Shown here in pieces: positions 3,283-38,400 of a DNA stretch of 48,497 bases (its first letter is position 1; every line of letters starts with the position of its first letter). The stretch spans positions 1 through 48,497 of the forward strand of contig NZ_NCII01000012.1 of assembly GCF_002256775.1 (NCBI RefSeq), given 5' to 3'. A model generated the notes under the pieces. That model did no database searches. It was not told the origin of the DNA and worked only from the letters and a program-made list of their open reading frames with translations. Source of the stretch: Novosphingobium sp. 17-62-19 (lineage in GTDB: Bacteria > Pseudomonadota > Alphaproteobacteria > Sphingomonadales > Sphingomonadaceae). Made by a program: the position numbers and the translations under genes.

Positions 3283-3300
3283 CGTTTATCTGTCGAAAAA

Positions 3301-3346: not shown

Positions 3347-3363
3347 GGCAGGCGCATAAATGC

Positions 3364-3448: not shown

Positions 3449-3459
3449 CAACCGGCACG

Positions 3460-3503: not shown

Positions 3504-3517
3504 AAACCATAGTCCAA

Positions 3518-14030: not shown

Positions 14031-14755
14031 CGGTCCCGTAGCCAGCCCGTTATCGCATAGCGGGCGCGGGGAGCGAACGGCGGGACATACGTCACCTGAT
14101 GCAATTGAGGCACACGAAGCAGGTTGAGCGTGTTGAAACGGGGCTTCCAGCCGCAGATCACATCGCCGTCCTCGTCAAGGAAGTTGAGGTAACCACCCCA
14201 GTCTGGCTGCCAGTCTGCTGATGTCAGGTTAAGGACATAGGCAACACGCCAGCCCTCCATGACATGACTGTCGTTGTGCACGGAAAGAAAATCGCCCGGT
14301 CCGTAAAGCGTCGCCTGCGCATCGGCTTTCACCAGTTCGGGAATGCCGGTCACCTCGCGGACAAGGTCAAGGAACGGCGTATCGTTGAGATGCTCCAGCA
14401 CCAGATCATGCGGCCCCGAGGCACCCCCTGCCTGCAAGTAAGCGTCGAGGATCGCGTACTGGGTAAAACGCACGGCATATTCACCTTTGGCGGCGGAACG
14501 GTGGATCGTATCGATCAGTTCGCGCTGCTTCGGCGGCGGCATGACCGAAATCTGGCGCGCATCAATCCGCTGCGCCCCGCTACGGCCGACTTGCCACGCA
14601 ATGCCCCAAGGCGTTTGCCGAGCAATGATGTCCTGAAGGTTCGCCGCGGATTCAGGCGTTAACAGGTTGCGAATCTGTACACGGCCATCGCGGGCAAACC
14701 GGCGAGCGGCCACACCACGGTCGATCCCGGAATCGAGGTCGAATATCCGGATCAT
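14027..14755 (-). CDS. Prolyl-4-hydroxylase-like 2OG-Fe(II) oxygenase
   Basis: Protein of 242 residues. The double-stranded beta-helix core carries the iron-binding HxD (HNDSH), then GWRVAYVLNLTSADWQPDWGG, the distal His in LHQVTYVPP and Arg in RARYAITGWLRD, matching the P4H/2OG oxygenase superfamily. No signal peptide is seen, so it is cytoplasmic. I chose the ATG at 14755 (MIRIFDLD); an in-frame start at 14806 adds 17 unrelated residues. It overlaps the TPR-oxygenase gene by four bases and is divergent from the 981-residue TonB receptor across 436 bp. Related receptor/2OG-oxygenase/TPR neighbourhoods occur in Sphingomonads and Caulobacter (general recollection). The substrate is unknown. 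Confidence 0.85.
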   Translation of the reverse strand: MIRIFDLDSGIDRGVAARRFARDGRVQIRNLLTPESAANLQDIIARQTPWGIAWQVGRSGAQRIDARQISVMPPPKQRELIDTIHRSAAKGEYAVRFTQYAILDAYLQAGGASGPHDLVLEHLNDTPFLDLVREVTGIPELVKADAQATLYGPGDFLSVHNDSHVMEGWRVAYVLNLTSADWQPDWGGYLNFLDEDGDVICGWKPRFNTLNLLRVPQLHQVTYVPPFAPRARYAITGWLRDR

Positions 14756-15191
14756 CTGTTGCAGGGCTTCATGGTTTGTTGATGCTAGTCCGGCGTGACT
14801 GCGCAAGTCAATTGTGCACGCAAATGTACGCAGGGTGGTTGCAGATGAAATTTAACCTCACCGGGAAAGATTTGCGAAGATGCACCGCACCTGAACGCAA
14901 TATTGTGGCTAAAATACCCGCCCTTGCGCGCCAAATGCTGTCAATGCGGCAATTTGGCAGGATTCGCGTGGTGTTGCACGGTTGCAACATCCCATTGCCT
15001 TAGGCGGTTTGCCATGTTGCATTAGCTTTACAGCATTCCCGCAGTGTGGCGAAAGAGTCGATAGTTTGCGGGCGGTCGGTTGTTGCAGGCGAAACTTTTC
15101 GTCAAGGACCCAAGCCATTGCAATCTACAAGACAGGGTTGGGCTGGCGCTTCCATCGGGCGCGCTGTCAGACTTAACAGGAGGACTGATTA
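14756..15191. promoter_or_regulatory. Divergent regulatory region with repeated TGTTGCA half-sites
   Basis: No gene is supported in this 436-bp gap. It contains TGTTGCA at 14972-14978, its inverse TGCAACA at 14983-14989 (a perfect 7-bp inverted repeat with spacer CGGT), TGTTGCA again at 15015-15021 and 15081-15087, and a lone TTGCAA near 15119. Such clustering suggests a regulator that controls the receptor and/or oxygenase genes. I see no cobalamin or other riboswitch core. Confidence 0.5.
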
Positions 15192-18137
15192 GTGATTCAA
15201 TCTAGCATACTCAAGCGCGCGGCGCTGAAGCGCTCGACGGCGGTTGCCGCCGTCACCCTCGCGCTGGTATCGCCAGCCGCTTTTGCACAGGAAGCTCAGG
15301 CTGAAGGTGAAGAGCCGGCACAAGCCATCGTCGTCACCGGTTCGCGCATTGCGCGCTCTGACGTGACCAGCGTTGCCCCGGTTTCGATCGTGGGTGCCGA
15401 AGAATTTCGTCTTTCTGGTACGGTAAACGCTGAAAACGTCCTCAACGCCCTGCCGCAGGTCATTCCGGGCACCACCTCGTTCTCGAACAACCCCGGTGGC
15501 GGCGTCGCCACGCTTGACCTTCGCGGTCTGGGCGCCCAGCGCACCATGGTGCTGGTCAATGGTCGCCGCTACATGTTCTACGGCACTGACCAGACCGTCG
15601 ATCTCAACACCATCCCGACTTTCCTGCTGAAGAATGTTGAAGTTGTGACCGGTGGTGGTTCGGCCGTGTACGGTTCGGACGCACTCGCTGGCGTCGTCAA
15701 CTTCCAGCTGCGCGACAATCTGCAGGGCCTCGAAGTGGGCGTGCAGCAGAGCCTGACTGGCCAAGGTGACGGCCGTCGCTTCAACGCCAATATCGCACTT
15801 GGCACCGAATTTGCCGACAATCGTGGCAACGTGACGGTCTACGGCGAATACAACAAGCGCGGCAGTGTGTTCCAGTCGGCGCGCGATTTCTCGCGCGTTG
15901 CATTGGCCGACAGCGGCGGTGCTCTTGCTGTGCAGGGGTCGCCCGGCGTGCCGCAGGGACGTCTGGTTGCCTCCCCGAACCTTCCAATTGGCACTGGTTC
16001 AAATTGTGACTCTACCCGAGGGGCCGTGGTAAACTGCTTCCCGATCGCTGCCGGGACCAATTACCCAGGCCTTGGCGCGTTCTTTGCGACGCCGGGCACG
16101 AGCCGTCCCTATACCGGCGCAGACAGCTATAACTTCGCACCCGTCAACTATCTGATGGTTCCGCAGGAGCGCTGGCTGCTTGGTGGCTATGGTGATTACG
16201 AAATCAACGCAAACGCCAAGGCCTACTTCGAATTCTCGTACGTCAACAACCGCGTCGAGAACGAACTGGCCGCAACTCCGGTCACACAGAATGTGGACTT
16301 CCAGCTGAGCGCTATTCAAGGCCTCGTTTCGGCCAGCGATTTTGCCCAGATGACGCAGATCGCCAATAACCAGCAGGCTGCGATCGCAGCGGCTGCAGGT
16401 CTTGGTGCGGCCAATCCTTACGGCGCATTCACGGCAGGCACCGGGCAGTTTGGAGCGCTTCAGCCAGGTTCGGTCCGCCTTCAGGTGAACACCCGCACCA
16501 CCGGCATCTCCTCGCGTAACGCTTCAGACGATCGCAGTGCATTCCGCGCTCTTGGCGGTGTGCGTGGCGATATCACTGACAGCATCCGCTACGATGCCTA
16601 CTACATGTACTCGCGCACCCGGAACTCGCAGATTCAGGAAGGCAACGTTTCGCGCAGCGCCTTCACGCGTCTGGCCGGCAACGGTACCTGCAATGTGTTC
16701 GGCTTTGAACAACTGAGCGATGCCTGCCTCAACTCGATCGCAATCCTTGCTCAGAACACCGTGATCTCGGAACTGCAGGTTGCACAGGCCAGCGTCACCG
16801 GTGACCTGTTCAAGTTTGGTTCTTCCAACGAACCAGTCCGCTTTGCTGTAGGCACCGAATGGCGTCAGATGGGCAGCGAGTTCATTCCTGATACTGCACT
16901 GTCTTCAGGCGACGTTGTCGGCTTCAACGCCGGTCAGCCCACCGAAGGCAGCTACACCGCGACCGAATTCTTCGGCGAACTTTCGGTGCCGCTAGTCCAG
17001 GACAGCTTCATCCACCGTCTCGAAATCGATGGTGCGGTCCGCTACTCTGACTATTCGCTTCAGGCAGTTGGTGGCGTGTGGGCTTATTCGGGCGGTGTTC
17101 GCTTCGCTCCGGTTCGCGACATCACGTTCCGTGGCCAGTATCAGCGCGCCATTCGTGCACCGAACGTGGGCGAACTGTTCGGCGGCCAGTCGGTCGGCTT
17201 CCCGACGGCAACCGATCCTTGCGCGACACCGACCGCAGAAACTGATCGCGCCACTTGCATTGCAACCGGTGTGCCGTCCTCTTCGTACGGTGCCGGTCTC
17301 GTTCTGCAGCCGGCAACGCAAATTCAGGGCGCATTCGGCGGAAACCCGAACCTGAGCGAAGAAGTTTCGGACACCTGGACGGCTGGTGTGGTCATTCAGC
17401 CGAGCTTCGTGCGTGGTCTGACACTGCAGGTAGATTACTTCGACATCAGCATCGACAAGTCGATTGCGACCGCTGGCGGTGGTGTGAATAACATCCTCAA
17501 CCTGTGCTATAACGTCATCAAGAACGCCAACAGCGCAATCTGCGGCCTGATCAGCCGTGACAGCCAGGGCATTATTTCTGGCCCGCCGTTTGTGGTCAGT
17601 GCCAACAACGCGAACCTCGCGTCGTTGGAAACGCGCGGTGTCGACTTCCAACTCGACTATGCCACCCGCGTGGGCTTTGGCATGTTCGGTGAAGAATCGC
17701 GCCTCGCCTTCAACCTGCTGGCAACCTACACCGACAAGTACACGTTCACTCCGCTTGTTGATCTGCCAGAAGACAACGTGCAGTGCGCAGGCAAGTTCGG
17801 CCTGAACTGCGGCGATCCGATCCCGAAGTTCAAGGCGAACAGCCGTCTGAGCTGGATCGACGGCCCGCTGACCACGTCAGTCCGCTGGCGCCATGTTGGC
17901 GCTACGGATGATGACACGGGTGGCCGTGTCGTTAATCGCATTGGTGCCTACAACGTCTTCGATCTGAGCCTGTCGGCTGAAGTGTCCGAAGGCGCAACCA
18001 TCAATGTTGGCGTCAACAACCTGTTCGACAAGGCTCCCCCGATCATCGGCAGCAACGCGCAGCAGGCCAACACCTACCCGAGCACCTTCGACGTGCTTGG
18101 TCGCGACTTCTTCGTATCGGCTCAGTTCCGCTTCTGA
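15192..18137 (+). CDS. TonB-dependent receptor
   Basis: Outer-membrane receptor of 981 residues. A signal peptide (about 1-32, ending AFAQ) is followed by a TonB-box-like AIVVTGSRI. The plug covers about 45-200: VLNALPQVIPG, LDLRGLGAQRTMVLVNGRRY, VEVVTGGGSAVYGSDALAGVVNFQLRDN. The large barrel ends in the classic C-terminal motif (FFVSAQFRF). The start codon is GTG with AGGAGG nine bases upstream. The subfamily (GSRI, then LVNGRR, length near 1000) differs from the phytase-linked and Hyu-linked receptors in this window. Its divergent neighbours are two 2OG-Fe(II) oxygenases, so the ligand may be a peptide or metabolite that they modify (inference). Confidence 0.92.
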   Translation: MIQSSILKRAALKRSTAVAAVTLALVSPAAFAQEAQAEGEEPAQAIVVTGSRIARSDVTSVAPVSIVGAEEFRLSGTVNAENVLNALPQVIPGTTSFSNNPGGGVATLDLRGLGAQRTMVLVNGRRYMFYGTDQTVDLNTIPTFLLKNVEVVTGGGSAVYGSDALAGVVNFQLRDNLQGLEVGVQQSLTGQGDGRRFNANIALGTEFADNRGNVTVYGEYNKRGSVFQSARDFSRVALADSGGALAVQGSPGVPQGRLVASPNLPIGTGSNCDSTRGAVVNCFPIAAGTNYPGLGAFFATPGTSRPYTGADSYNFAPVNYLMVPQERWLLGGYGDYEINANAKAYFEFSYVNNRVENELAATPVTQNVDFQLSAIQGLVSASDFAQMTQIANNQQAAIAAAAGLGAANPYGAFTAGTGQFGALQPGSVRLQVNTRTTGISSRNASDDRSAFRALGGVRGDITDSIRYDAYYMYSRTRNSQIQEGNVSRSAFTRLAGNGTCNVFGFEQLSDACLNSIAILAQNTVISELQVAQASVTGDLFKFGSSNEPVRFAVGTEWRQMGSEFIPDTALSSGDVVGFNAGQPTEGSYTATEFFGELSVPLVQDSFIHRLEIDGAVRYSDYSLQAVGGVWAYSGGVRFAPVRDITFRGQYQRAIRAPNVGELFGGQSVGFPTATDPCATPTAETDRATCIATGVPSSSYGAGLVLQPATQIQGAFGGNPNLSEEVSDTWTAGVVIQPSFVRGLTLQVDYFDISIDKSIATAGGGVNNILNLCYNVIKNANSAICGLISRDSQGIISGPPFVVSANNANLASLETRGVDFQLDYATRVGFGMFGEESRLAFNLLATYTDKYTFTPLVDLPEDNVQCAGKFGLNCGDPIPKFKANSRLSWIDGPLTTSVRWRHVGATDDDTGGRVVNRIGAYNVFDLSLSAEVSEGATINVGVNNLFDKAPPIIGSNAQQANTYPSTFDVLGRDFFVSAQFRF

Positions 18138-22102: not shown

Positions 22103-23311
22103 TCAGATCACTCCGTTGGCTGCCATCGCAGCCAGTTCTGCCTCGCTCAGCCCGAGCAATTCGCCATAGATCTCGGCATTGTGCTGGCCTACCTTCGAAG
22201 GCGCAGGCCGACGCACCGAGCCGGGTGTGGCCGACAGTTTAGGGAAGCTCGACTGCATCTTGAGCGGGCCGAAGCGTTCGGTCTCCACCTCGATGATCGC
22301 CTCGCGCGCCTGAAAATGTGGATCGGCCAACATGTCGGGCGCGCGATAGACGCGGCCTGCGGGGATCGAATGCTCGATCATCAGCGCATCCACCTCCTCA
22401 ATGGTAAGGGTGCGCGTCCACGCGTTGATCAGGGTATCCAGTTCGTCCTGATTCTCGCCACGGGCAAGGTGGGTGGCATAACGCGGATCATCCCCCAGTT
22501 CGGGGCGACCCATCGCTGTGGCAAGTCGCTTCCACAGCGAATCCTTGTTCGCGCCGATCATGAATTCGCCGTCCTTGCAGGAATAGACGTTGGACGGGGC
22601 AATGCCCTTCAGCACAGAACCGGAGCGTTCGCGGATATACCCGCTCCGGTCATATTCGGGCACAAGACCTTCCATCACCTGCAGCACGGATTCATACAGG
22701 GCGGCATCGACCACCTGCCCGCGCCCGGTCTGCGCGCGCTCGTGCAGCGCCGCCAGAACGCCCATGCAGCCGTATGTGGCGGTCAGCGTGTCGCCGATGG
22801 AAATGCCCATGCGACTTGGCGCGCGGTCGGGCTCGCCCACGATATAGCGCCAGCCGCCCATCGCTTCGCCAATGCCGCCGAACCCTGCGCGATCCGAATA
22901 AGGGCCGGTCTGGCCATAGCCCGACATGCGCGCGATGATCAGGCCCGGCTGTTCTGCCAGCAGAACGTCTGGGCCAAGGCCCCATTTCTCCATCGTGCCG
23001 GGCTTGAAGTTCTCGATCAGCACATCTGCTTGGGAGATCAGCTTGCGCACAAGTGCCTGCCCCTCGGCCACGCGCAAGTTGGCGCTGACTGAGCGCTTGT
23101 TGCGCGCGATCACTTCCCACTGCACCTTTTCCGCGCCCTGGCCCCATTCGCGCATGGGGTCACCGGTTACCGGCGGCTCCACCTTGATCACATCGGCACC
23201 CATATCGCCCAGCAACTGGCCGCAGAACGGACCTGCGAGAAGCTGGCCGAGTTCGACAACGCGGATGTTGCGCAAAGCGCCGGGGTTATTGCCGGAATTG
23301 TGGGCAGTCAT
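22103..23311 (-). CDS. CaiB/BaiF-family (class III) CoA-transferase
   Basis: Enzyme of 402 residues that moves CoA between carboxylic acids through an aspartyl-CoA intermediate. Family features: IRVVELGQLLAGPFCGQLLGDMGADVIKVEPP near the N terminus, RNKRSVSANLR, ADVLIENFKPGTMEKWGLG, ISGYGQTGPY-type MSGYGQTGPYSDRAGF, and the catalytic Asp region (MGISIGD). The ATG at 23311 has GGAG eight bases upstream, inside the end of hyuB; a longer in-frame start at 23344 lies before it. The stop of hyuB is five bases upstream. This is the last gene of a four-gene operon (lyase, HyuA, HyuB, CoA-transferase), suggesting activation of the HyuAB product or its acid partner. Confidence 0.9.
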   Translation of the reverse strand: MTAHNSGNNPGALRNIRVVELGQLLAGPFCGQLLGDMGADVIKVEPPVTGDPMREWGQGAEKVQWEVIARNKRSVSANLRVAEGQALVRKLISQADVLIENFKPGTMEKWGLGPDVLLAEQPGLIIARMSGYGQTGPYSDRAGFGGIGEAMGGWRYIVGEPDRAPSRMGISIGDTLTATYGCMGVLAALHERAQTGRGQVVDAALYESVLQVMEGLVPEYDRSGYIRERSGSVLKGIAPSNVYSCKDGEFMIGANKDSLWKRLATAMGRPELGDDPRYATHLARGENQDELDTLINAWTRTLTIEEVDALMIEHSIPAGRVYRAPDMLADPHFQAREAIIEVETERFGPLKMQSSFPKLSATPGSVRRPAPSKVGQHNAEIYGELLGLSEAELAAMAANGVI

Positions 23312-23316
23312 TGTAA

Positions 23317-25203
23317 TTACTCCGCCGCTTCCAGAAGCGGCCATTCAGGTTGGATCGGCGCAGGGAGGCCAGTTTCCGCCTCACAATTGGCGCGCAAAGC
23401 TTCGATCCCCGGCCCGTAGTTGAAAAGCGGAAGTTCACCACGGCTGCTGCGAAGTTCGGCGCGCAAAGCCTCGGTTGCCTCTACATCAATCACGCCATTA
23501 TCATCTGCGACCACGCCATAAGCCTTTGCGCCTTCAACGGTGACCAAGCCCTGCCGGATTTCGAGACCAACGAGAGCGGGATCACGCGCCAGAGCATCGC
23601 CCCAACCGCCGCCGCCCCATGTGATGAAGTGCAGCATGTCGCCAGCTTCCACGTCTACGTCTTCGACCTTGTTGCCGACGATGATCTGCGAGCCATCAGC
23701 CTTTTCGAGAATCTTGCGCGCGCGTGCGCCCGGCTCGCCACCATTGACGCCCCATGGCGGCACGAACCAGCGGTCATCGTGGATCGCGATGGTGCCTTTG
23801 GACAGGAACCGGTAGGTCATGCGGATGCCGTTGCCGCCGCGATGGAGGCCCGCGCCGCCCGAATCCGGCTCGCACTCGTAGCGTTCGATCACCATCGGGA
23901 AGTAGCGCTCAAGGAATTCGTTGGGCACGTTGGTAAAGCCCGGCCAGAGCGAATGGCCGTCCGGCCCATCGCCCATCGGGCGGCCCGGAATGCCGCCGAA
24001 GCCGATCTGGAACAGTTGAAACCATTCGGCATTCTTGCCCGCGCGCTCATCATCGCCCGAATAGAACAGGTGCGGGCTTGAAGAGAACCCGGCAGCGTTG
24101 AGGAATTCGGGCGTCTTCTGGCCGAGCAGTCCCCCCAGAATGTCAAAGATACGGCCAAGCGCGTGGGTGCGGCCTGAAAGCGCGGCAGGGAATTTGGGCT
24201 TGAGCAGCGATCCTTCTGGGATGCGCACATCGATCAGATCGTAGAACCCGTCGTTGAACAGGATCTGCGGATCAAACACCATGATCATGTAGATGCCAAA
24301 GAACATCTTGAACATGTTCTCGTTCAGCAGGAAATTGATCGAGGCGACCGATTGCGGATCGGTGCCCGTGAAATCAAGCACAACGCGGCCGTCCTCTCGC
24401 CACATCGTGCATTTGATCTTGTAGGGGCCAAAGCCCATGCCATCATCGCAAATGTAGTCTTCGAAGCTGACCGGCTCTTCCGCGATGGCCATGCCGATCA
24501 GCGCCTTCATTGCGCGATGGTTGCGCGCCAGCAGTTCCTGCGTGGCCGAGACATAGACGTCATCGCCGAACCGCTCGGCCATTTCCACCACGCGACGCGC
24601 TGCCACGCGGCAGGCGGCGATCAGAGCGTTAAGGTCTGCCGCGCACCAGTCAGGCTTGCGGGTCTGGTGCATGACGAGGCGGATCAGGTCTTCGTTGTAT
24701 TCGCCCTTCCTCCAGATCTTCACCGGCGGGATGCGCACGCCCTCTTCGAAAATTGAGCGCGCGTTGATCGGCATGGAGCCGACGACCTTGCCCCCGATGT
24801 CGGACTGGTGGCCGAACATCGACGTATAGGCGATCAGGCGTCCGTCCTTGAACACCGGCAGCAGGACCAGCCAGTCGTTCGAATGGCTGACCGCGCCGCC
24901 GACCGAATAGGGATCGGACAGGAAGATCATGTCGCCGTCTTCGAGCGTGCCTGCATAGTTATCGAGGAAGCCGCCGATGAAGCTGCCGAACTGGCCGACG
25001 ATCATCTTGCCGGTGTGATCGGCAATCAGCGGGAAAGCATCGCCCTGCTCGCGGATGCCGGGCGACATCGCGGTGCGCACCAGCGTGGCGTCCATCTCGA
25101 TGCGCGCGTTGCGCAGCGCGTTCTCGATAATGTCGAGTGTGACGGGGTCGATGGGGATGCGGTTGAAGGGCGTTTCGTTGGTCTGGATGATGGTTGCAGG
25201 CAT
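23317..25203 (-). CDS. Hydantoinase B/oxoprolinase-family subunit (HyuB-like)
   Basis: Partner of the HyuA-like subunit (628 residues). Family features: DPVTLDIIENALRNARIEMDATLVRTAMSPGIREQGD near the N terminus, then LIADHTGKMIVGQFGSFIGG, DGDMIFLSDPYSVGGAVSHSNDW, HQSDIGGKVVGSMP, and near the C terminus EPDSGGAGLHRGGNGIRMTYRFL and ITWGGGGWGD. These are shared by hydantoinase B, 5-oxoprolinase and acetone/acetophenone carboxylase subunits, so the reaction could be ATP-dependent ring opening of an N-heterocycle or carboxylation of a ketone. It lies 13 bases after hyuA. The sequence does not decide the substrate. Confidence 0.92.
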   Translation of the reverse strand: MPATIIQTNETPFNRIPIDPVTLDIIENALRNARIEMDATLVRTAMSPGIREQGDAFPLIADHTGKMIVGQFGSFIGGFLDNYAGTLEDGDMIFLSDPYSVGGAVSHSNDWLVLLPVFKDGRLIAYTSMFGHQSDIGGKVVGSMPINARSIFEEGVRIPPVKIWRKGEYNEDLIRLVMHQTRKPDWCAADLNALIAACRVAARRVVEMAERFGDDVYVSATQELLARNHRAMKALIGMAIAEEPVSFEDYICDDGMGFGPYKIKCTMWREDGRVVLDFTGTDPQSVASINFLLNENMFKMFFGIYMIMVFDPQILFNDGFYDLIDVRIPEGSLLKPKFPAALSGRTHALGRIFDILGGLLGQKTPEFLNAAGFSSSPHLFYSGDDERAGKNAEWFQLFQIGFGGIPGRPMGDGPDGHSLWPGFTNVPNEFLERYFPMVIERYECEPDSGGAGLHRGGNGIRMTYRFLSKGTIAIHDDRWFVPPWGVNGGEPGARARKILEKADGSQIIVGNKVEDVDVEAGDMLHFITWGGGGWGDALARDPALVGLEIRQGLVTVEGAKAYGVVADDNGVIDVEATEALRAELRSSRGELPLFNYGPGIEALRANCEAETGLPAPIQPEWPLLEAAE

Positions 25204-25216
25204 GGCTGATGCTCCC

Positions 25217-27265
25217 TCAGGCCAGATGAATCAGGATGTTACCGACAGCGTCGACCGTGCCGGTGCAGCCGGATTCGATCAGCGTTGTCGAATCCATTTC
25301 ACAGACGATGGCCGGGCCGGGGATCACATCTCCGGCCCGCAGCTTGGCGCGATCGTAGATCACGGCGGGCTGTTCGCGCCCATCCATCCACAGCACGTGA
25401 TCGCGCATCTTGGCAGCGATGGGATTGCCATCGCCCTTCTCCAGTTCCGCTGCGGGCAAATCGAGTGCGCGGCCCATGGCGACGGCGCGCAGGTTCACGA
25501 TCTCGTGCGGGGTGTCCATGTTGAAGGTGAACAGGCGTTTGTGTTCGGCATCGAAGCGCGCGAGGATTCCCGCGATGCCATCGCTGGTGAGCACATCGGC
25601 GGTGATCGTCAGCGGCACTTCGAAGGCCTGTCCTGCATAGCGGACATCGACTTCGAACGCGCTGGTGATCTCGTCCTCAGGCACGCCATCGGCGACAAGT
25701 TCGGCGCGGGTCTGCGCGGCCATTTCGTCGAGGATCGCGATGAGGTCGACCGCTTCGGTCTGGCTGGCAAGGCGGCTGAACGAACGTGCGGTTTCGGTGC
25801 GCATCCGCGTGGTGGCATCGCCCAGCGCGCAGAGCACGCCGGGGCTGACCGGCGAGATTGCAGGCCATGATCCCATAAGGCGGGCCACCGCGTTCACGTG
25901 GAGCGGCCCCGCTCCACCAAAGCCCATCAGCGCAAAGTCTCGCGGATCGTAGCCCTGCTGCACCGAAATCATGCGCAGCGCGCCGAACATGTTCTCGTTG
26001 ACGATATCGATGATCCCGCGCGCGGCGGCCATCAGATCGATGCCGAGTGCATCGGCAATGGTCTGCACCGCCTTCTTTGCGCCCTCTCGGTCAAGGTTGA
26101 ACGTGCCGCCAAGCAGGTTCTCGGGCAAGTAGCCGAGCACCACGTTGGCGTCCGTCACCGTGGGCAGCGTGCCACCTTTGCCATAGGCCACCGGCCCCGG
26201 CACCGCACCCGCGCTCTGCGGGCCGACGCGTAATGCGCCGGTCAATTCAGGTACATAGGCGATGGAGCCGCCCCCAGCGCCTACCGTCTTCACATCCAGA
26301 GCAGACGCGCGGACGGAGAGATGGCCCACTTCGGTGGTGCGCTGGCGACGCGCTTCCAGGTTCTCGATCAGCGCGACGTCGGTGCTTGTGCCGCCGACAT
26401 CGAGCGTGAGGATGTTCCTGATCCCGGCATTGCGCCCGACCCAGATCGCGCCGGTAACGCCGCCCGCAGGCCCGGACATAAGGATATTGACCGGATGCTC
26501 CTCGGCCTTCTGCGCGCTCATCAATCCGCCGTCGGACCGCAGTAGCGAGAGCTTGCCCTCCATCCCCGCATCGGCAAGGCGCGAGCGCAAGTTCGAAACA
26601 TACTTGCTGACGATCGGGCGCACGGCGGCGTTGGCCACGGTGGTCAGCGTGCGCTCGTACTCCTGCATTTCGGGCAGGACTTCGTGGCTGAGCGAGACAG
26701 GCAGGCCCGGCAGGATTTCGGCGGCGAGTTCGCCCACGCGGGACTCATGCGCGCCGTTGGTATAGGCATTGATCAGGCTGACGGTGATCGCCTCCACGCC
26801 ATTGGCCTTCAGGACTGAAAGCTGCGCGCGGATATCGGCATCGTCGATGGGGCGGATTTCCTCGCCCTCGGCGCTCATGCGGCCCTTGATCGTAACCGTA
26901 TCTTCCAACGCGGCGAGCGGCTGCGGCTTGGGCCAGACGATCCAGCCCGCCAGCCCGCCCGGCACGAAGCTGCGCGCGATCTGCATGACATGCCGGTAAC
27001 CCTCGGTGGCAACAAGACCAACTCGCGCGCCCTTGCCTTCCAGCACAGCGTTGGTCGCAACGGTGGTGCCGTGGAGGAAGAAGTCCACATCGCCGGGCGT
27101 AATCCCCGCCGCCGCGCAGATCGCAGTGACCCCGTTGAGGATGCCCTCGGAGCTGTCATGCGGCGTCGATGGCGTCTTGTGCCGCCAGAACGCGCTTGAT
27201 GCCGTGTCGAACAGCAGGAGGTCGGTAAACGTGCCGCCCACGTCCACGCCAAGGCGATAACCCAT
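25217..27265 (-). CDS. Hydantoinase A/oxoprolinase-family subunit (HyuA-like)
   Basis: ATP-using subunit of 682 residues with an acetate-kinase/Hsp70-type fold. Phosphate-binding motifs: GVDVGGTFTDLLLFD at the N terminus and ILTLDVGGTSTDVALI in the middle. FLHGTTVATNAVLEGKGARVGLV and LMSGPAGGVTGAIWVGR are family hallmarks. It should phosphorylate the substrate carbonyl for the HyuB half. At 682 residues it matches stand-alone hydantoinase A proteins rather than the fused 5-oxoprolinase of about 1200 residues. It starts four bases after the lyase stop. The gene is most likely part of a catabolic pathway with the lyase and the CoA-transferase. Confidence 0.93.
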   Translation of the reverse strand: MGYRLGVDVGGTFTDLLLFDTASSAFWRHKTPSTPHDSSEGILNGVTAICAAAGITPGDVDFFLHGTTVATNAVLEGKGARVGLVATEGYRHVMQIARSFVPGGLAGWIVWPKPQPLAALEDTVTIKGRMSAEGEEIRPIDDADIRAQLSVLKANGVEAITVSLINAYTNGAHESRVGELAAEILPGLPVSLSHEVLPEMQEYERTLTTVANAAVRPIVSKYVSNLRSRLADAGMEGKLSLLRSDGGLMSAQKAEEHPVNILMSGPAGGVTGAIWVGRNAGIRNILTLDVGGTSTDVALIENLEARRQRTTEVGHLSVRASALDVKTVGAGGGSIAYVPELTGALRVGPQSAGAVPGPVAYGKGGTLPTVTDANVVLGYLPENLLGGTFNLDREGAKKAVQTIADALGIDLMAAARGIIDIVNENMFGALRMISVQQGYDPRDFALMGFGGAGPLHVNAVARLMGSWPAISPVSPGVLCALGDATTRMRTETARSFSRLASQTEAVDLIAILDEMAAQTRAELVADGVPEDEITSAFEVDVRYAGQAFEVPLTITADVLTSDGIAGILARFDAEHKRLFTFNMDTPHEIVNLRAVAMGRALDLPAAELEKGDGNPIAAKMRDHVLWMDGREQPAVIYDRAKLRAGDVIPGPAIVCEMDSTTLIESGCTGTVDAVGNILIHLA

Positions 27266-27269
27266 GCTC

Positions 27270-28187
27270 TCAGTTCTCCTGAACAGGTTTCGGGAAGGCA
27301 GGCGCCTGCGCCACCATTCCGGGAAGTTTTCGGCCCATGACCCCTGCGAGCCAATGGTTGGCCTCGATCAGTGCGGACAGGTCCATACCGGTCTGAACGC
27401 CAGCGCGGTGGAGCATATAGACCACGTCTTCACTCGGCACATTGCCCGCCGCGCCCGGCGCAAAGGGGCAGCCGCCAAGACCGCCCAGCGCCGCATCCAC
27501 CACACTCGCGCCGGCTTCGACCGCCGCCCAGACATTAGCGATGCCGGTCCCACGCGTGTTGTGAAAGTGGACGCGCACCGGGGTCGGAGCGACCGCCTCA
27601 ACAACGCGGCGGACAAGCCGTGACACTTTCGCCGGATCAGCCACGCCGATGGTGTCAGCCAGCGCTACCTCGATGGGCTTGGCTTCTGCCAGTGCGCAGG
27701 CCATGGCAACGACACGGTCCTCGCTGACTTCACCCTCGAACGGGCAACCGAATGCTGCGCCGATCGTCGCCTGTCCTTTCAGGCCAGCGGCCTGCGCCAT
27801 GCCGACAATGGCCTTGGCCGCCACAACCGATTCGTCACTGGTCTGGCCCTGATTGGCAATCGCGAAGCCATCGGTCGAAACGCAGACCGCGCCCAGCTCA
27901 TGGAGCCGCCTCGTGGCAATCGCCCGCTCTGCTCCGCGTTCATTAAGCACGAGGCCGATGTAGCTGACCCCGACCTCGTCAGGCAGCCCGGCGCAAACCT
28001 CCTCGGCATCGGCCATCTGCGGCACGCGTTTGGGATTGACGAAGCTGGTCACTTCGATTCGCCGCGCGCCCGCCGCAATGCTGCGCCGAACCAGCTCAAG
28101 CTTGTCCGCCGTCGAGATCAGGGTCTTCTCGTTCTGCAACCCGTCACGCGGGCCGACCTCGAGAAAAGTGATCGATTGCGCAGTCAT
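27270..28187 (-). CDS. Hydroxymethylglutaryl-CoA lyase-family enzyme
   Basis: TIM-barrel lyase of 305 residues that cleaves 3-hydroxy-3-methylglutaryl-CoA, or a similar 3-hydroxyacyl-CoA, to acetyl-CoA and a keto product. Motifs: EVGPRDGLQNE (residues 10-20, with metal- and substrate-binding Asp and Arg), EVTSFVNPKRVPQMADAEEV, metal-binding HFHNTRGTGIANV, and the catalytic Cys loop GGLGGCPFAPGAAGNVPSEDVVYML. All key residues are present. It is the first gene of the operon and is divergent from a TonB receptor. Leucine degradation is the usual setting, but the liu genes are absent here, so another branched or heterocyclic acid is possible (inference). Confidence 0.9.
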   Translation of the reverse strand: MTAQSITFLEVGPRDGLQNEKTLISTADKLELVRRSIAAGARRIEVTSFVNPKRVPQMADAEEVCAGLPDEVGVSYIGLVLNERGAERAIATRRLHELGAVCVSTDGFAIANQGQTSDESVVAAKAIVGMAQAAGLKGQATIGAAFGCPFEGEVSEDRVVAMACALAEAKPIEVALADTIGVADPAKVSRLVRRVVEAVAPTPVRVHFHNTRGTGIANVWAAVEAGASVVDAALGGLGGCPFAPGAAGNVPSEDVVYMLHRAGVQTGMDLSALIEANHWLAGVMGRKLPGMVAQAPAFPKPVQEN

Positions 28188-28442
28188 GACAGCGCCCCGG
28201 CCAAGCAGAAAGGGTGATCAGAAATCATGGCTCTCCACATCACTTCGTATGCAAACTCATTCTGCGTCCATCCCAGATAGGCCCGAAACCTGCACATACG
28301 CGCATGAATCTTGGCACCTTGACCGCAGCACTTTGTATACAATAAGCTGCCCTTGTCACAAGCGTGCGTCAAGAGGGGGCAAAAGCCCGGACATGCGCGA
28401 AACCATATCAGGTCGTGATCGAACCAAAAGGGAGGTTTGAGA
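28188..28442. promoter_or_regulatory. Divergent promoter region with GTATAC palindromes
   Basis: No gene is supported in this gap between the lyase operon and the TonB receptor. TTGTATACAA at 28333-28342 is a perfect 10-bp palindrome of the kind bound by FCD-type GntR regulators. TCGTATGCAA at 28245-28254 matches it at 8 of 10 bases, and a weaker core CATACG is at 28295-28300. The FCD regulator encoded at 31029 is the natural candidate to bind them. Confidence 0.6.
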
Positions 28443-30971
28443 ATGCGTGCCAATCGTTTTCTGCTGAATACCGCTGCACTTGGCCTGCTGGCTGCGACCA
28501 CACCGTCCATCGCGCAAGAGGTGCCGCAAGACACTGCGGCAACTGAAGACACTGGCGATGCCATCATCGTCACCGCCCGCCGCCAGAACGAGCGGTTACA
28601 GGACGTGCCCGCCTCGGTCTCGGTCCTCACCGCCAGCGCGCTGCAGAACACCGGCGCGGTCAAGGCGGAGGATTTCACCCAGCTTACCCCCGGCGTCACC
28701 ATTGTTACCGGCACGGCCGAAGCGGGCGATACCCAAATCAACATTCGCGGGATCAACGGTGCGCGCGATGCCGAAAGTTCGGTGGCGCTGGTCGTTGACG
28801 GCATCCTCAAGACCAACACCGCGCAGTTGAACCAGCCGCAGGGTACGCTCACGCAGGTCGAAATCCTGAAAGGCCCGCAGGGCGCGCTCTATGGCCGCAA
28901 TGCCGCAGCCGGTGCCATTGTCCTGCAAACGATGAAGCCGACCGAAACACTGACCGGCGGCCTCCGCGCATCCTATGCCAACGAGGCGACATACGAGGCG
29001 ACCGCGCACATTGCGGGACCGCTGGGCGACAACGCGGGCTTTGTGCTTTCAGGTTACTATTTCACCACCGATGGCTGGTGGCGCAACACCTTCCTGAACA
29101 ATTCCAAGACGGTCGATGACAAGGAAAACTGGGCCGTTGATGGCCGGTTCATGCTGGGCCAAGGCACGGCCACGCAACTTGACGTGAAGGCGCGTTACGC
29201 AGAGTTCAAGGGCGCTTCGCTGCCGTTCAACGCCGCCTTCCACCTGCCGCTGTTCGGCGGCGCGTTCTATGAAGACGTGAACAAGCACCCGTTCAACTTC
29301 TACAACAACATCCGCGCTACCAACGATCAGAAGAGCATCGACGCCTCGATCAAGCTGGACCACGAATTCGGCAATGGCATGAAAGTGGTGGCCTGGGGGC
29401 TTTATTCAGATGTCGATCAGGATCTTGTCGCCGATGGCACCTCGGCAGACTTTGCCCGCTTCATCAGCGCAGCGGACCCCGCAGTCGCCAGTTCGGTGAA
29501 CGCCTGCTTTGCCAGCACGGCGGCGCTGACGGGTTTCCCGGTAAACCCGCCGGGCGGCATCGGTCAGATCCCGGTTCCGTTCATCTTCGCGCCGACCAAC
29601 GGCTCCACATTCGGACCCTACAGCCCCACGACCTGCGACGGCACGCAATACCAATTGCGCCAGCAGGAAGACGTTTCCGCTGAAGTGCGTTTGCTTTCGA
29701 ACACCGATGGCCCGCTGACATGGCAACTCGGCGCCTATTTCCTGCACATCGACCGCAAGACTGGCGTCAGCCTTGGCGCAGACACCGGGCAGGGCGTAAT
29801 CAAACAGCTCTACAATGCGCCGAATTCAGCGAACCCCACTTCACTGCTGCTGGCCGACAAGTTCAGCACCAATGTCTATGCCGCGTTCGGCGCGACCGAA
29901 TGGAAACCTTCGGAGCAGTTCACCGCGGGCCTTGCGCTGCGCTATGACATCGAGGACCGCTCGGCCAATTCGCTCGTGCCTAATGAGCTTGATCCTTTCA
30001 CCGGCGGGCCGATCAACCCCGGTCTGGCCTTCGGTCCGTTCGTGGCAAAGAACGCCACGTTCAAGCAGCTTCAGCCCAAAGTCACGCTCAGCTTCCGGCC
30101 AACGCCGAACCTGAACATCTATGCCAACTGGGGCATCGGTTTCAAATCGGGCGGCTTCAACAACCAGGGCTCGTCCGCCGTGGTCAATGCCAGTTTCAAC
30201 GATGGCGTGACGCCGGGCACGATCGATGCCGATGTCACGATCAACGACCTTTACCGAAAGGAGCGGTCGAGCGCGTTCGAAGGCGGCGTGAAAGGCCAAT
30301 TGTGGGACGGGCGGATCACATTTGATCTGGCCGGATACTACACCCGCGTCACCGATATGCAGTTCTTCGAATTCTTCGTCGGCAGCTTTGGCCTGCTGCG
30401 CGTAGTTTCGAACATCGATCAGGTCGACATCAAGGGTGCCGAGATCAATCTAACAGGCAAGATCGTCGATGGCTGGAAGGTCTTCGGCTCGTTCAACGTG
30501 ACCGACAGCGAGATCAAGAAAAACGCCTCTCGCCCTTACACTGTGGGCAACAAATCGCCCTATACCGCCGACTGGACGCTGAACATCGGCTCGGAAATCA
30601 ACGCACCACTGACGGACAGCGCCAAACTGCTGTTCCGCGCCGATTATCGCATCACCGGGCCAACATGGTTCCATTCGGTGCAGGATCAGGAGCGGCCGAC
30701 GATCTTCTCGGCGCTGCTGCCGATCTCGGCCCTCGGGGCGCCCGGATTCGTCGGCAATGCGCGCTATGACGTCGCCAAGCGCGAGGCCTTCGGCGTGCTC
30801 AATCTGCGCGCAGGCATAAACATGGAGCGCTATCGCATTGCCGTGTTTGCCGAAAACCTGTTGGATCGCCGCTACATTTCCGAGGCCATTCCGGCGATCG
30901 AATTTGGCGGATCGTTCATCACGCCGGGTGCGCGGCGTCTGATCGGGGTTGAAGTGGGCGCCACGTTCTGA
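28443..30971 (+). CDS. TonB-dependent receptor
   Basis: Outer-membrane receptor of 842 residues. A signal peptide (about 1-25, ending PSIAQ) is followed by a TonB-box-like AIIVTARRQNERLQDVPASVSVLT. The plug covers about 45-170: EDFTQLTPGVTIV, INIRGINGA, VALVVDGILK, VEILKGPQGALYGRNAAAGAIVL. The beta-barrel ends in the usual aromatic (VEVGATF). This is the FecA/CirA-like type that Sphingomonads use for small organic compounds as well as siderophores. The ATG at 28443 has GGGAGG eight bases upstream. It heads a plus-strand unit with a GntR regulator and is divergent from the lyase/HyuAB/CoA-transferase operon, so it probably imports that pathway's substrate (inference). Confidence 0.92.
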   Translation: MRANRFLLNTAALGLLAATTPSIAQEVPQDTAATEDTGDAIIVTARRQNERLQDVPASVSVLTASALQNTGAVKAEDFTQLTPGVTIVTGTAEAGDTQINIRGINGARDAESSVALVVDGILKTNTAQLNQPQGTLTQVEILKGPQGALYGRNAAAGAIVLQTMKPTETLTGGLRASYANEATYEATAHIAGPLGDNAGFVLSGYYFTTDGWWRNTFLNNSKTVDDKENWAVDGRFMLGQGTATQLDVKARYAEFKGASLPFNAAFHLPLFGGAFYEDVNKHPFNFYNNIRATNDQKSIDASIKLDHEFGNGMKVVAWGLYSDVDQDLVADGTSADFARFISAADPAVASSVNACFASTAALTGFPVNPPGGIGQIPVPFIFAPTNGSTFGPYSPTTCDGTQYQLRQQEDVSAEVRLLSNTDGPLTWQLGAYFLHIDRKTGVSLGADTGQGVIKQLYNAPNSANPTSLLLADKFSTNVYAAFGATEWKPSEQFTAGLALRYDIEDRSANSLVPNELDPFTGGPINPGLAFGPFVAKNATFKQLQPKVTLSFRPTPNLNIYANWGIGFKSGGFNNQGSSAVVNASFNDGVTPGTIDADVTINDLYRKERSSAFEGGVKGQLWDGRITFDLAGYYTRVTDMQFFEFFVGSFGLLRVVSNIDQVDIKGAEINLTGKIVDGWKVFGSFNVTDSEIKKNASRPYTVGNKSPYTADWTLNIGSEINAPLTDSAKLLFRADYRITGPTWFHSVQDQERPTIFSALLPISALGAPGFVGNARYDVAKREAFGVLNLRAGINMERYRIAVFAENLLDRRYISEAIPAIEFGGSFITPGARRLIGVEVGATF

Positions 30972-30979
30972 TGAGGGGG

Positions 30980-31011
30980 TCTGGAGGCGGGCTCACCGGC
31001 CCGCCGCCAGA
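30980..31011 (+). terminator. Stem-loop between TonB receptor and GntR genes
   Basis: TCTGG, a mismatch, and GGCGGGC pair with GCCCGCC, a mismatch, and CCAGA around the loop TCACCG. It has no U-run and lies between two co-directional genes. It may be an attenuator or an mRNA-processing or stabilising structure rather than a full terminator. Confidence 0.45.
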
Positions 31012-31028
31012 TCGATACAGGAGCAGCC

Positions 31029-31670
31029 GTGTCCAAAGCCTCTCAGGAAGCCTACCGCAAGATTCGCGCCGGGATCCTGTCGGGCCATTTCCCGGCCGGG
31101 CAGTTCGTCACCGAGGACGAATTCGCGCAGTTCTGCGCCCTCTCCCGCACGCCGGTGCGCGAGGCGATTGCCGAACTCGTGAGCGAGATGCTGCTCCAGC
31201 GTTCAGATACAAACCGCGTGTTCGTGCCGGTCTGGTCCGATGACGACGAGGAGGAGCTGTTCAGCCTGCGCGCCATGCTGGAAAGCCACTGCGCCGGCCG
31301 CGCCGCGCGACTGATCTCGGACGAACAGATTACGGAATTGCGCGGTCATTGTGATTTCATCGACCGCGCGATTGCCGAGGCGGACGGGCCGGACGTTTCA
31401 GGCTTCGTCGAAGGCAACCGCCATTTTCACGCGGTTATCCTGGCTGCCGCGCAATCCGAACGGCTGGCGCAACTGATGAAGTTCGTGGTCAGTCAGATCG
31501 TCGTCCACCGGACGGCAGAACAGTATTCGCGTGCTGACATGGAGCAGAGCCAGCGCGACCACCGCGATCTGGTCAGAGCTTTCGAAACCCGCGACGAAGA
31601 CTGGGCGCGCGCTTTGGCGAATACGCACATCCGCCGCGCCGCCAGCGTTTACCGCGCGATGCGGGGATAG
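31029..31670 (+). CDS. GntR-family regulator, FadR/FCD subfamily
   Basis: Transcription factor of 213 residues. The N-terminal winged helix (about 5-70) has AYRKIRAGILSGHFPAGQFVTEDEFAQFCALSRTPVREAIAELVSEMLL. An all-helical FCD ligand domain follows (about 75-205) with LFSLRAMLESHCAGRAARL, FVEGNRHFHAVILAAAQSERL and the late HxxLVRAFETRD segment; the acid/His set of FCD domains usually binds a metal and an organic acid. The start is GTG with AGGAG six bases upstream. It is 57 bp after the TonB receptor and probably controls the divergent operons through the GTATAC palindromes at 28245-28342. Confidence 0.9.
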   Translation: MSKASQEAYRKIRAGILSGHFPAGQFVTEDEFAQFCALSRTPVREAIAELVSEMLLQRSDTNRVFVPVWSDDDEEELFSLRAMLESHCAGRAARLISDEQITELRGHCDFIDRAIAEADGPDVSGFVEGNRHFHAVILAAAQSERLAQLMKFVVSQIVVHRTAEQYSRADMEQSQRDHRDLVRAFETRDEDWARALANTHIRRAASVYRAMRG

Positions 31671-36115: not shown

Positions 36116-36709
36116 TCAGAAGCTCCACGATTTCGGTGCAGCAAATTCGGGCAGCACCGCAAAATCGGCATCGCCAAGCGGGGTGGCAATGACTTTGGCC
36201 AGAACCTTGCGCGCAATGGCAAGGCGGGTCACGCCGCGATCCACAATCCCGGTGACAACGCGACCATCATCGGCAAGCAGCGTGGCCAGCGCTTCAGGCA
36301 GCACTTCGGCTGCGCCGTCAATCAGGATCAGCGAATACGGCCCACCCTGCGCCGTGCCAAGCGCATCCGCGCGGGTCACGTTGCCCGCCAGCTTCCCCGC
36401 CAGCGCCGCAAGATACCCGTTGGGTGACACGACCAGCACGCTGTCAACCGACGTGGTGCCAGCAGCTTCAAGCATCTGGCCATACGTCAGCGCCGGTGAG
36501 AGGAACTTGCCTTCACCCAGCGGCACGGCCCGATCCATGTAGGACACCGCGCGGCGGTCAGCGGGCACAAAATCCTCGCGCCGCACGCTGTTGAACGCAG
36601 CCAGAATGCCGGGTGCATTGACGCCGCTGACACGCAGCTGGCTATCGATCATTGCACGGCGCGCAACCTGCATTTCATCCACAGCCGGGCGGTCTTCAAC
36701 CACGGTCAT
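36116..36709 (-). CDS. Protein-L-isoaspartate O-methyltransferase-like protein (degenerate)
   Basis: Protein of 197 residues related to the Pcm repair methyltransferase: the N-terminal part (MIDSQLRVSGV, SVRREDFVPADRRAVSYMDRAVPLGEGKFLSPALTYGQMLEAAG) is typical. But the SAM-binding motif I that should read VLEIGTGSGY is VLVVSPNGY here, with the glycines lost. It may be inactive as a methyltransferase or bind something else (inference). The ATG at 36709 has GAGGG five bases upstream. It lies directly upstream of tolC, a recurrent neighbour in alphaproteobacteria (recollection), so it may serve the envelope. Confidence 0.8.
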   Translation of the reverse strand: MTVVEDRPAVDEMQVARRAMIDSQLRVSGVNAPGILAAFNSVRREDFVPADRRAVSYMDRAVPLGEGKFLSPALTYGQMLEAAGTTSVDSVLVVSPNGYLAALAGKLAGNVTRADALGTAQGGPYSLILIDGAAEVLPEALATLLADDGRVVTGIVDRGVTRLAIARKVLAKVIATPLGDADFAVLPEFAAPKSWSF

Positions 36710-36876
36710 CGCAACCCTCATGTTTCAGACGGGAGCCGATCAAGGCATCGTTTCCCGCAATTGATCTCTGGCAAGTGCCTGTAGATTATCGATCTGCTGT
36801 TTCCAAGGGATTTGCATGTCGATTGTCGACGCGTAAGGGGCGTTCGCAGTTTCTCAGGCATTGGAGGGATTTCCGA

Positions 36877-38400
36877 ATGGCCGAAATGGTGACGATCAAG
36901 GAAACAGACCTGATCGATAGCGTTGCCGATGCGCTGCAATACATCAGCTATTTCCACCCGATGGACTACATTCGCGCGCTGGGTGACGCCTATGAGGCTG
37001 AACAAGGCCCCGCGGCAAAGGACGCCATCGCGCAGATCCTCACCAACAGCCGCATGTGCGCCGAAGGCCACCGTCCGATCTGTCAGGACACCGGCATCGT
37101 CAACGTTTTCATCAAGTGGGGGCAGGATTGCCGCCTCGACAGCGACCTCTCGCTTCAGGACGTGGTCGATGAAGGCGTGCGCCGCGCCTATCTGAACCCG
37201 GATAACAAGCTGCGCGCCTCGGTACTGGCCGATCCCGCCTTCACCCGCCGCAACACGCGCGACAACACGCCATGCGTGCTCCACGTGGAAATGGTCAAGG
37301 GCAGCAAGGTTGTTGTCGATGTCGCGGCCAAGGGCGGCGGCAGCGAGAACAAGTCGAAGTTCAAGATGATGAACCCAAGCGATTCGATTGCCGACTGGGT
37401 GATCGAAATGCTGCCGCAGATGGGCGCGGGCTGGTGCCCGCCGGGGATGCTCGGCATCGGCATCGGCGGCACAGCGGAACATTGCGTTTTGCTAGCCAAG
37501 AAAGCGCTGATGGAGCCGATCGACATGGCCCAGCTCAAGCTGCGCGGCCCGCAGACCGACATCGAAAAGCTGCGCATCGAAATCTTCGACAAGGTCAATG
37601 CGCTCGGCATCGGTGCACAGGGCCTTGGCGGCCTTTCGACCATCCTCGACGTAAAGATCATGGACGCCCCCTGCCACGCTGCGGGCAAGCCGGTGGCAAT
37701 GATCCCCAACTGCGCCGCCACGCGCCACGCACACTTCAGCCTCGACGGGTCCGGGCCGAGCTATCTCGAACGGCCCAAGCTCGATGAATGGCCGCAGGTC
37801 CACTGGGCGCCCGATTCGGCGGCCAAGCGCGTCAATCTCGACACGCTGACACAGGCAGACGTGCAGGGCTGGAAAGCGGGCGACCGTCTGCTGCTCAACG
37901 GCAAGATGCTCACCGGCCGCGATGCCGCGCACAAGCGCATCAAGGACATGCTGGCCAAGGGCGAGCAACTGCCGGTCGATTTCAAGGGCCGCGTGATCTA
38001 CTATGTCGGCCCGGTCGATCCGGTGCGCGAAGAAGTGGTCGGCCCGGCAGGCCCCACCACCGCCACCCGCATGGACAGCTTCTCCGACCTGATGCTCGAC
38101 CTCGGCCTGCTGGCCAGCGTCGGCAAGGCAGAGCGTGGCCCCGCAGCCACGCAGAGCATCGCCAATCACAAGAGCGCCTATCTGATGGCGGTCGGCGGCG
38201 CGGCCTACCTCGTCGCCCGCGCGATCAAGGAATCGAAGGTCGTGGGCTTCGAAGACCTTGGCATGGAAGCGATCTACGAATTCACCGTCGAGGACATGCC
38301 CGTGACAGTGGCAGTCGATAGCGACGGCGAAAACGTCCACAAGTCTGCGCCATTGGTGTGGAAGAAGAAGATTGCGGACGAAGGGTTGCTGCCTGCATAA
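36877..38400 (+). CDS. fumA: Class I fumarate hydratase ([4Fe-4S], homodimeric)
   Basis: TCA-cycle enzyme of 507 residues that interconverts fumarate and malate. Class I motifs: CQDTGIVNVFIKWG, DVAAKGGGSENKSKFKMMNPSDS, GWCPPGMLGIGIGG, PNCAATRHAHFSLDGSG and, near the C terminus, GPTTATRMDSF. The conserved Cys residues in these blocks are the iron-sulfur ligands. The enzyme is of the oxygen-labile type. The ATG at 36877 has GGAGGG eight bases upstream; a longer in-frame reading upstream is unconserved. A terminator-like hairpin follows at 38427-38458. Confidence 0.95.
   Translation: MAEMVTIKETDLIDSVADALQYISYFHPMDYIRALGDAYEAEQGPAAKDAIAQILTNSRMCAEGHRPICQDTGIVNVFIKWGQDCRLDSDLSLQDVVDEGVRRAYLNPDNKLRASVLADPAFTRRNTRDNTPCVLHVEMVKGSKVVVDVAAKGGGSENKSKFKMMNPSDSIADWVIEMLPQMGAGWCPPGMLGIGIGGTAEHCVLLAKKALMEPIDMAQLKLRGPQTDIEKLRIEIFDKVNALGIGAQGLGGLSTILDVKIMDAPCHAAGKPVAMIPNCAATRHAHFSLDGSGPSYLERPKLDEWPQVHWAPDSAAKRVNLDTLTQADVQGWKAGDRLLLNGKMLTGRDAAHKRIKDMLAKGEQLPVDFKGRVIYYVGPVDPVREEVVGPAGPTTATRMDSFSDLMLDLGLLASVGKAERGPAATQSIANHKSAYLMAVGGAAYLVARAIKESKVVGFEDLGMEAIYEFTVEDMPVTVAVDSDGENVHKSAPLVWKKKIADEGLLPA

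Follow-up and report, generated by a model that had tools for sequence, protein, structure and literature searches.

The nicotinate pathway ends with a maleamate amidase and a maleate isomerase, and nicotinate fermentation with dimethylmaleate hydratase and 2,3-dimethylmalate lyase. In the itaconate route Ict-Ich-Ccl (RipABC), a branched dicarboxylate undergoes coenzyme A (CoA) transfer, hydration and C-C cleavage, and 3-hydroxy-3-methylglutaryl-CoA (HMG-CoA) lyase acts in leucine catabolism. Caprolactamase (CapAB) and N-methylhydantoinase share a HyuA/HyuB architecture, the ATP-binding and metal-binding parts of which open a ring amide, as described in PMC8453981. Here we describe a six-gene cassette with traits of each of these systems, located in the 48,497 nucleotides of contig NZ_NCII01000012.1 from Novosphingobium sp. 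17-62-19 (this whole stretch is hereafter called the window). The source genome (G000, GCF_002256775.1) amounts to 3.8 Mb in 149 contigs and its assembly is 95% complete. The cassette encodes an HMG-CoA-lyase-like protein (HMGL), the two subunits HyuA and HyuB, a CaiB-family class III CoA-transferase, a TonB-dependent outer-membrane receptor and a GntR/FCD transcriptional regulator. Our results pointed to a substrate-induced catabolic regulon for a cyclic imide, most likely a C-alkylated maleimide, a reading to which we give a probability of about 0.5.

HyuAB resembles caprolactamase and N-methylhydantoinase in its architecture, yet it lies below the caprolactamase equivalog cut-offs and keeps other genetic company (CaiB, HMGL and an amidase). 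This amidase, found in relatives and belonging to the isochorismatase superfamily, has 3ot4/3uao among its two best Protein Data Bank (PDB) matches and thereby recalls the end of the nicotinate pathway; here, in contrast, the ring would be opened by HyuAB, and the CoA-dependent cleavage proposed below would take the place of isomerisation to fumarate. The end of nicotinate fermentation is paralleled by two steps of the proposal, in which an alkylmaleate is hydrated and then split by a retro-aldol reaction that yields pyruvate, and the lyase of some related loci is near 2,3-dimethylmalate lyase, but the type found in the window uses CaiB together with HMGL and would begin from the ring. Like the itaconate route, the proposal takes a branched dicarboxylate through CoA transfer, hydration and breakage of a C-C bond, and MaoC- and CitE-type genes occur beside HyuAB in two related loci (L161 and L162), whereas the window has an HMGL-family lyase, and the proposed scheme also opens a ring and, in relatives, hydrolyses an amide. 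HMGL itself agrees with the HMG-CoA lyase of leucine catabolism in family and catalytic motifs and departs from it in operon context. No paper describing the cassette was found in a literature search, which covered few subscription journals.

HMGL (27270..28187), HyuA (25217..27265), HyuB (23317..25203) and CaiB (22103..23344, with a start perhaps at 23311) form one minus-strand operon in which HMGL comes first; the TonB receptor (28437..30971) and the GntR/FCD regulator (31029..31670) are transcribed divergently, on the plus strand. All six genes claimed by the initial annotation, which was made from the sequence alone, proved to be open reading frames (ORFs) where they had been placed, and their families were confirmed by Pfam above gathering scores: PF00682 for HMGL (144.8 bits), PF01968, PF05378 and PF19278 for HyuA (Hydantoinase_A, 289 bits), PF02538 for HyuB (Hydantoinase_B, 490 bits), PF02515 for CaiB (CoA_transf_3, 414.7 bits), the PF00593 barrel and PF07715 plug for the receptor (115.9 and 68.5 bits), and PF07729 FCD and PF00392 GntR for the regulator (83 and 49 bits). 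The tight packing it had reported was likewise found, with 4 bases between HMGL and HyuA, 13 between HyuA and HyuB and 5 between HyuB and CaiB when the last is read from the ATG at 23311; the longest CaiB ORF has its start at 23344, which creates a 28-base overlap with HyuB. The receptor ORF opens with TTG at 28437, and an ATG is available at 28443. We take the ORF at 28184-28852 (minus strand), which overlaps the divergent promoter and the receptor gene, as spurious.

Conservation of this gene order in other genomes, put forward as a test by the initial annotation, was examined in the best 80 of 327 loci encoding a HyuB relative, obtained by a scan of named genomes and taken with flanks of at most 10 kb (hereafter named loci). 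All four enzymes occurred together in 70 of the 80, and in 69 of these 70 order and strand were kept within 6.5 kb, the lone exception (L107) having CaiB inverted. The refuting condition set by the initial annotation, four genes that do not stay together elsewhere, therefore failed. Cultured carriers among the named loci include Novosphingobium subterraneum DSM 12447 (L038) and N. taihuense (L039). All six genes were present in 67 named loci, and those without the full set were mostly cut by contig ends. At 40% identity or above, the receptor was matched in 70/80 (72/80 counting weak matches) and the regulator in 68/80. Among 148 genomes of relatives, 80 displayed a HyuB match at E <= 1e-60, with at least 50% identity in 71 of those; the corresponding cassette tally comprised 77 HyuB rows at this identity and excluded nine genomes with only 28-35% identical matches. 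The cassette is common in sphingomonads, since HyuB and an HMGL gene lay no more than 8 kb apart in 54 of the 148 genomes. A wider sample, 385 genomes taken from the class, yielded 30 (own genome counted) in which HyuB was matched at E <= 1e-120. The cassette represents a real, conserved and apparently singly regulated catabolic set.

Ring hydrolases were the best matches of HyuAB. Against PDB sequences, HyuA scored 469.8 bits with N-methylhydantoinase, 405.6 with caprolactamase, 306 with acetophenone carboxylase and 207 with acetone carboxylase, and HyuB ranked the same four at 213, 205, 116 and 55 bits. Caprolactamase, which hydrolyses lactams in an ATP- and bicarbonate-dependent reaction, was also the best NCBIfam family for both subunits (NF050156/NF050157; 542.4 and 213.2 bits), but both missed its equivalog cut-off of 1000. 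HyuB residues D55, H107, D110 and H132 aligned with D41, H99, D102 and H124, the four metal ligands named for CapB in PMC8453981, and were invariant in 119/119 clustered genes. Because hydrolases outscore carboxylases, the metal ligands are kept and the caprolactamase cut-offs are missed, HyuAB probably constitutes, by family match, a separate branch of ATP-dependent ring hydrolases, with HyuA as the ATP-binding and HyuB as the metal-binding subunit.

Carboxylation by HyuAB, which the initial annotation had considered beside ring opening, was not borne out. A ketone carboxylase, with CaiB activating its product and HMGL cleaving it, appears very improbable: both subunits are homologous to those of acetone and acetophenone carboxylases, and HMGL-family enzymes do cleave beta-hydroxyacyl-CoA, but the carboxylase matches of HyuA reached 306 and 207 bits versus 470 and 406 for the hydrolases, the acetophenone/acetone carboxylase equivalog cut-offs were missed (317.6 of 1500, for HyuA, and 113 of 1500 bits), Pfam recognised two Hyu genes only among the six, hence no third carboxylase subunit, and the association with an amidase would be left unexplained. 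Degradation of a lactam of the caprolactam or 5-oxoproline type to an omega-amino acid is suggested by the best NCBIfam family (542 and 213 bits) and is nevertheless highly unlikely, as both subunits lie below the cut-off, no transaminase occurs among the six genes, and a lactam gives an amine, after which an amidase, a CoA-transferase and a C-C lyase would not be expected.

The pathway for a cyclic imide was narrowed by genes found in relatives and thus invisible to the earlier reader: an amidase, hydratases and alternative lyases. The isochorismatase-superfamily amidase was matched in 64/80 named loci and started at most 300 bases past CaiB in 58/80; it was not found beside CaiB in the nine loci nearest to the window (L032-L040). 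Its nearest PDB sequences were N-carbamoylsarcosine amidohydrolase (best) and 3ot4/3uao, which we take to be the maleamate amidohydrolase of B. bronchiseptica. The catalytic triad of this superfamily is Asp-Lys-Cys, and the predicted counterparts were kept in 91 (Asp), 92 (Lys) and 91 (Cys) of 92 clustered genes, the remainder being gaps. Some loci displayed a fuller set, i.e. a single-strand run of CaiB-HyuB-HyuA-HMGL-amidase-LeuD-LeuC in L173 and a group composed of LeuD, LeuC, HMGL, HyuA, HyuB, CaiB and amidase in L190. L183, a contig fragment of the close relative G058, showed LeuC-LeuD-amidase.

Other lyases were encountered as well. A second HyuAB type from the same genus (HyuB about 80% identical) adjoins an ICL/PEP-mutase-family lyase and not HMGL and CaiB (L174-L176, L189, L191, L194, L195 and L199; an HMGL- and a CaiB-like gene lie several kb off in L174, L194 and L199). 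A lyase of this family also follows HyuAB in L142, L151, L152, L155 and L177, and L151, L155 and L177 additionally contain both an HMGL-like and a CaiB-like gene. The nearest PDB sequences of the L142 lyase were petal death protein, carboxyvinyl-carboxyphosphonate mutase and 2,3-dimethylmalate lyase. Hydratase-type partners included an MmgE/PrpD gene in L142 and LeuC plus LeuD in L152. The CitE-type protein of L161 and the MaoC-type protein of L153 had their best, sub-threshold matches in the RipC and RipB families of itaconate enzymes. Two further neighbours recorded were a Sua5/YrdC-like protein (L142:14083-14823, plus strand), recurring beside HyuAB in several distant loci and odd for a catabolic operon, and genes resembling nitrile-hydratase subunits by eye near the orthologous HyuAB of L147 and L148.

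These associations were counted by a tblastn panel in 56 orthologue loci, hand-picked from HyuB hits, related and non-independent (L149 and L150 share a contig and overlap; L180-L187 were excluded). Controls were 20 other-HyuAB loci (HyuB relatives of 28-35% identity) and 20 arbitrary 20-kb windows at round coordinates in 11 genomes. A lyase of the HMGL, ICL/PEP-mutase or CitE type was found in 40/56 orthologue loci and in none of either control set; an amidase in 32/56, one of the 20 other-HyuAB loci and no arbitrary window; and a hydratase in 14/56, 1/20 and 0/20, respectively. Panel queries came from some of the 56 loci, and the source locus was excluded from single-gene counts and included in these combined ones (40, 32 and 14). 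That a single kind of ring-opening enzyme has such varied lyases and hydratases for neighbours suggests a common chemistry, the addition of water to an unsaturated branched dicarboxylate followed by its cleavage, and it is this chemistry that carries the pathway proposal.

According to the proposal, the TonB receptor would import a small N-heterocycle, and HyuAB would open its ring at the expense of ATP, in the manner of caprolactamase and N-methylhydantoinase, to give a half-amide. An amidase of the maleamate/N-carbamoylsarcosine type would then release ammonia, leaving a C-substituted maleate-type dicarboxylate, to which a hydratase (LeuCD, PrpD or MaoC type in some relatives) would add water to form a substituted malate; this hydration is the weakest step. 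CaiB would transfer CoA onto the substituted malate, and HMGL would cleave the resulting malyl-CoA derivative to give an acyl-CoA together with a 2-oxo acid, for example pyruvate. The order of ring opening, CoA activation and retro-aldol/Claisen-type cleavage suggested by the initial annotation is thus supported; among its substrate guesses, a cyclic imide is the best reading, while a branched-chain keto acid found no support. If true, known enzyme families, here combined in a new order, would lead from a ring imide all the way to central metabolites by a complete route that has apparently not been described, and genes that currently bear the names hydantoinase and HMG-CoA lyase could be named better where they occur in this arrangement.

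HMGL exceeded the cut-off of the NCBIfam HMG-CoA lyase subfamily PRK05692 (292.8 versus 246 bits). Its motifs HxH[ND][TS]R and GGCPF were invariant across 87 clustered genes, and RDG was kept in 84, with gaps in the other three. The arginine of HxH[ND]TR was considered as a substrate signature, as human HMG-CoA lyase has Tyr at this position, and was discarded because B. subtilis YngG (1ydo) has Arg as well. CaiB had its best, sub-threshold NCBIfam matches in succinate-glutarate and succinyl-CoA:mesaconate CoA-transferases, with 269.7 bits against an equivalog cut-off of 750 for the former (NF052585). The subfamily score of HMGL, together with a match of CaiB to succinate-hydroxymethylglutarate CoA-transferase structures (9br7, 194 bits), would fit a lactam or imide that gives rise to 3-hydroxy-3-methylglutarate (meglutol), which CaiB would turn into HMG-CoA for cleavage by HMGL to acetyl-CoA and acetoacetate. 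We regard this as quite improbable, since the dimethylmalate-lyase-like and CitE-like lyases and the LeuCD, PrpD and MaoC-type genes of related loci would be left unexplained and we know of no common natural 3-hydroxy-3-methylglutarimide. Two other HMGL homologues occur in the source genome. Neighbours of the first (C120:67904-68803, L260; 59% identical) resemble CaiB and a permease by eye, perhaps a related dicarboxylate route; those of the second (C89:7545-8435, L262; 43%) resemble CaiB, aldehyde dehydrogenases and an FAD monooxygenase, also by eye.

The divergent promoter spans 255 bases and holds the palindrome TTGTATACAA (28333..28342), a predicted operator by position and conservation. 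It was the sole match in the window, where 0.23 would be expected with one mismatch; in the source genome, the pattern WTGTATACAW was matched exactly once, at the cassette, and a reversed control pattern twice. The core TGTATACA occurred in 70/80 named loci, each time upstream of a cassette gene and no more than 450 bases from it, and the ten loci without it start inside HyuA or HMGL, so that the promoter region is absent from them. Among 19 further, hand-picked HMGL-linked HyuAB loci, TGTATACA was present in 14, before a cassette gene in 13 and only away from the cassette in L190; it was not found in L164, L171, L173, L188 and L202. Controls gave 2/37 for other HyuAB-orthologue loci, 0/20 for unrelated-HyuAB loci and 2/20 for arbitrary windows. 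The shared palindrome places the receptor and the enzymes, and in many relatives also the regulator, in one regulon, which bears out the earlier claim of a dedicated receptor and regulator. The GntR/FCD protein would govern both transcription units through TTGTATACAA.

Several points weigh against the imide reading. In the source strain, the surroundings of the cassette revealed neither an amidase nor an additional hydratase. An amidase homologue (51% identical) lies on another contig, at C1:5543-6145, outside the predicted operator (no exact match) and among apparently unrelated genes that resemble sugar isomerases and an MFS transporter by eye; the amidase role would fall to it, which is a weak point. 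Hydration would need a housekeeping enzyme such as LeuCD, a second weak point, and a single LeuC was found in the genome (E <= 1e-60; LeuC alone searched). Among relatives, 16 of the 56 orthologue loci were without a lyase and 42 without a hydratase in the panel, some loci being short, and just 1/80 named loci had a hydratase gene. The swap between lyases is not clean, HMGL and the ICL/PEP-mutase lyase occurring together in 6/56 orthologue loci, and the lyase of L142 scored nearly equally for methylisocitrate lyases, its best NCBIfam being prpB, below cut-off. The arginine motif of HMGL, common to YngG, fails to separate a malyl-CoA-type substrate from HMG-CoA. Finally, L173 and L190, which show the fullest gene set, are without the palindrome at the cassette. 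Two further results concern the source strain: the ICL/PEP-mutase lyase was not found in its genome (E <= 1e-10, in a search without positive control), and a class I fumarase-like gene of the window (36652-38400), considered as the missing hydratase, was matched in only 3/80 named loci and was taken as an ordinary neighbour.

A further point against an imide is a dihydropyrimidinase-like gene in some far loci (L142, L149 and L178), which fits cyclic ureides. With a hydantoin or dihydropyrimidine as substrate, HyuAB would yield an N-carbamoyl amino acid, which would lose its carbamoyl group to the amidase and then be degraded further; N-methylhydantoinase as the best PDB match of both HyuA and HyuB, N-carbamoylsarcosine amidohydrolase as that of the amidase, and a hydantoin-racemase-family gene in 19/80 named loci speak in the same direction. 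Such a substrate is unlikely all the same, as it leaves no clear task for CaiB, HMGL, LeuCD or the ICL/PEP-mutase and CitE-like lyases. Moreover, Thr and Ser replace both cysteines of hydantoin racemase 3qvj in the racemase-like proteins (24/24 clustered genes), the chemistry of which (L092:5283-6038, minus strand, and 23 relatives) is probably not racemisation. Beside the racemase-like gene of L092 lie tandem SnoaL-like small proteins (4442-4852 and 4852-5283, minus strand), each matched in 18/80 named loci.

Within the imide reading, chlorophyll-derived maleimides became candidates because the cassette tracks anoxygenic phototrophy within the genus. The HMGL-linked cassette was present in 16/19 genomes with a reaction-centre match versus 38/129 without (148 genomes; Fisher p = 7e-6), and within the genus in 12/15 versus 16/74 (p = 3e-5). 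When 81 genus members were placed on a PurD tree (cassette in 12/15 versus 15/66), a dependent model beat an independent one (likelihood ratio 14.8, p = 0.005), with rates from a simple optimiser, p by chi-square approximation and one trait (Photo_RC). This tree covered 81 of 89 genus genomes, three without a PurD match and five with fragments only (among them G042, a cassette carrier) being excluded, and contained two partial PurD tips. It replaced a 90-tip version (p = 0.0027) that was biased by hand-chosen outgroup genomes, all of them cassette carriers. HyuAB not linked to HMGL displayed no association with phototrophy on the PurD tree (p = 0.53).

The substrates might accordingly include maleimides from chlorophyll or haem (tetrapyrrole) breakdown, such as methyl ethyl maleimide and hematinic acid, a possibility that we advance tentatively and consider doubtful. 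Any maleimide substituted on carbon would suit the scheme. Methylethyl maleimide and hematinic acid are well-known natural examples. They are described as derived from chlorophyll in senescent leaves and in sediments (PMC12860425), and bacteriochlorophyll is considered a further source of maleimides (PMC8669743). The maleimide would be converted to a 2-methyl-3-alkylmaleate, then to an alkylmalyl-CoA, and finally to pyruvate and butyryl-CoA or glutaryl-CoA. Three points speak against: no reaction centre was found in the source strain (in its 95% complete assembly), a shared sunlit habitat could produce the same phototrophy pattern, and the PurD tree rests on one marker gene, which is thin. If a chlorophyll or haem maleimide were the substrate, the cassette would show which bacteria remove the markers of past photosynthesis used by geochemists and would provide a gene marker for them. 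An anecdotal observation concerns L159, where genes resembling magnesium-chelatase BchD/BchI by eye (849-3696, minus strand) stand at the amidase-CaiB end of the cassette.

The outer genes of the window (purD, exonuclease VII, peptidases, a TolC-like protein and the class I fumarase) look unrelated to the cassette. Elsewhere in the window, TPR and 2OG-Fe(II) oxygenase proteins (12351-14806, minus strand, and 15192-18137, plus strand) adjoin a second large TonB receptor.

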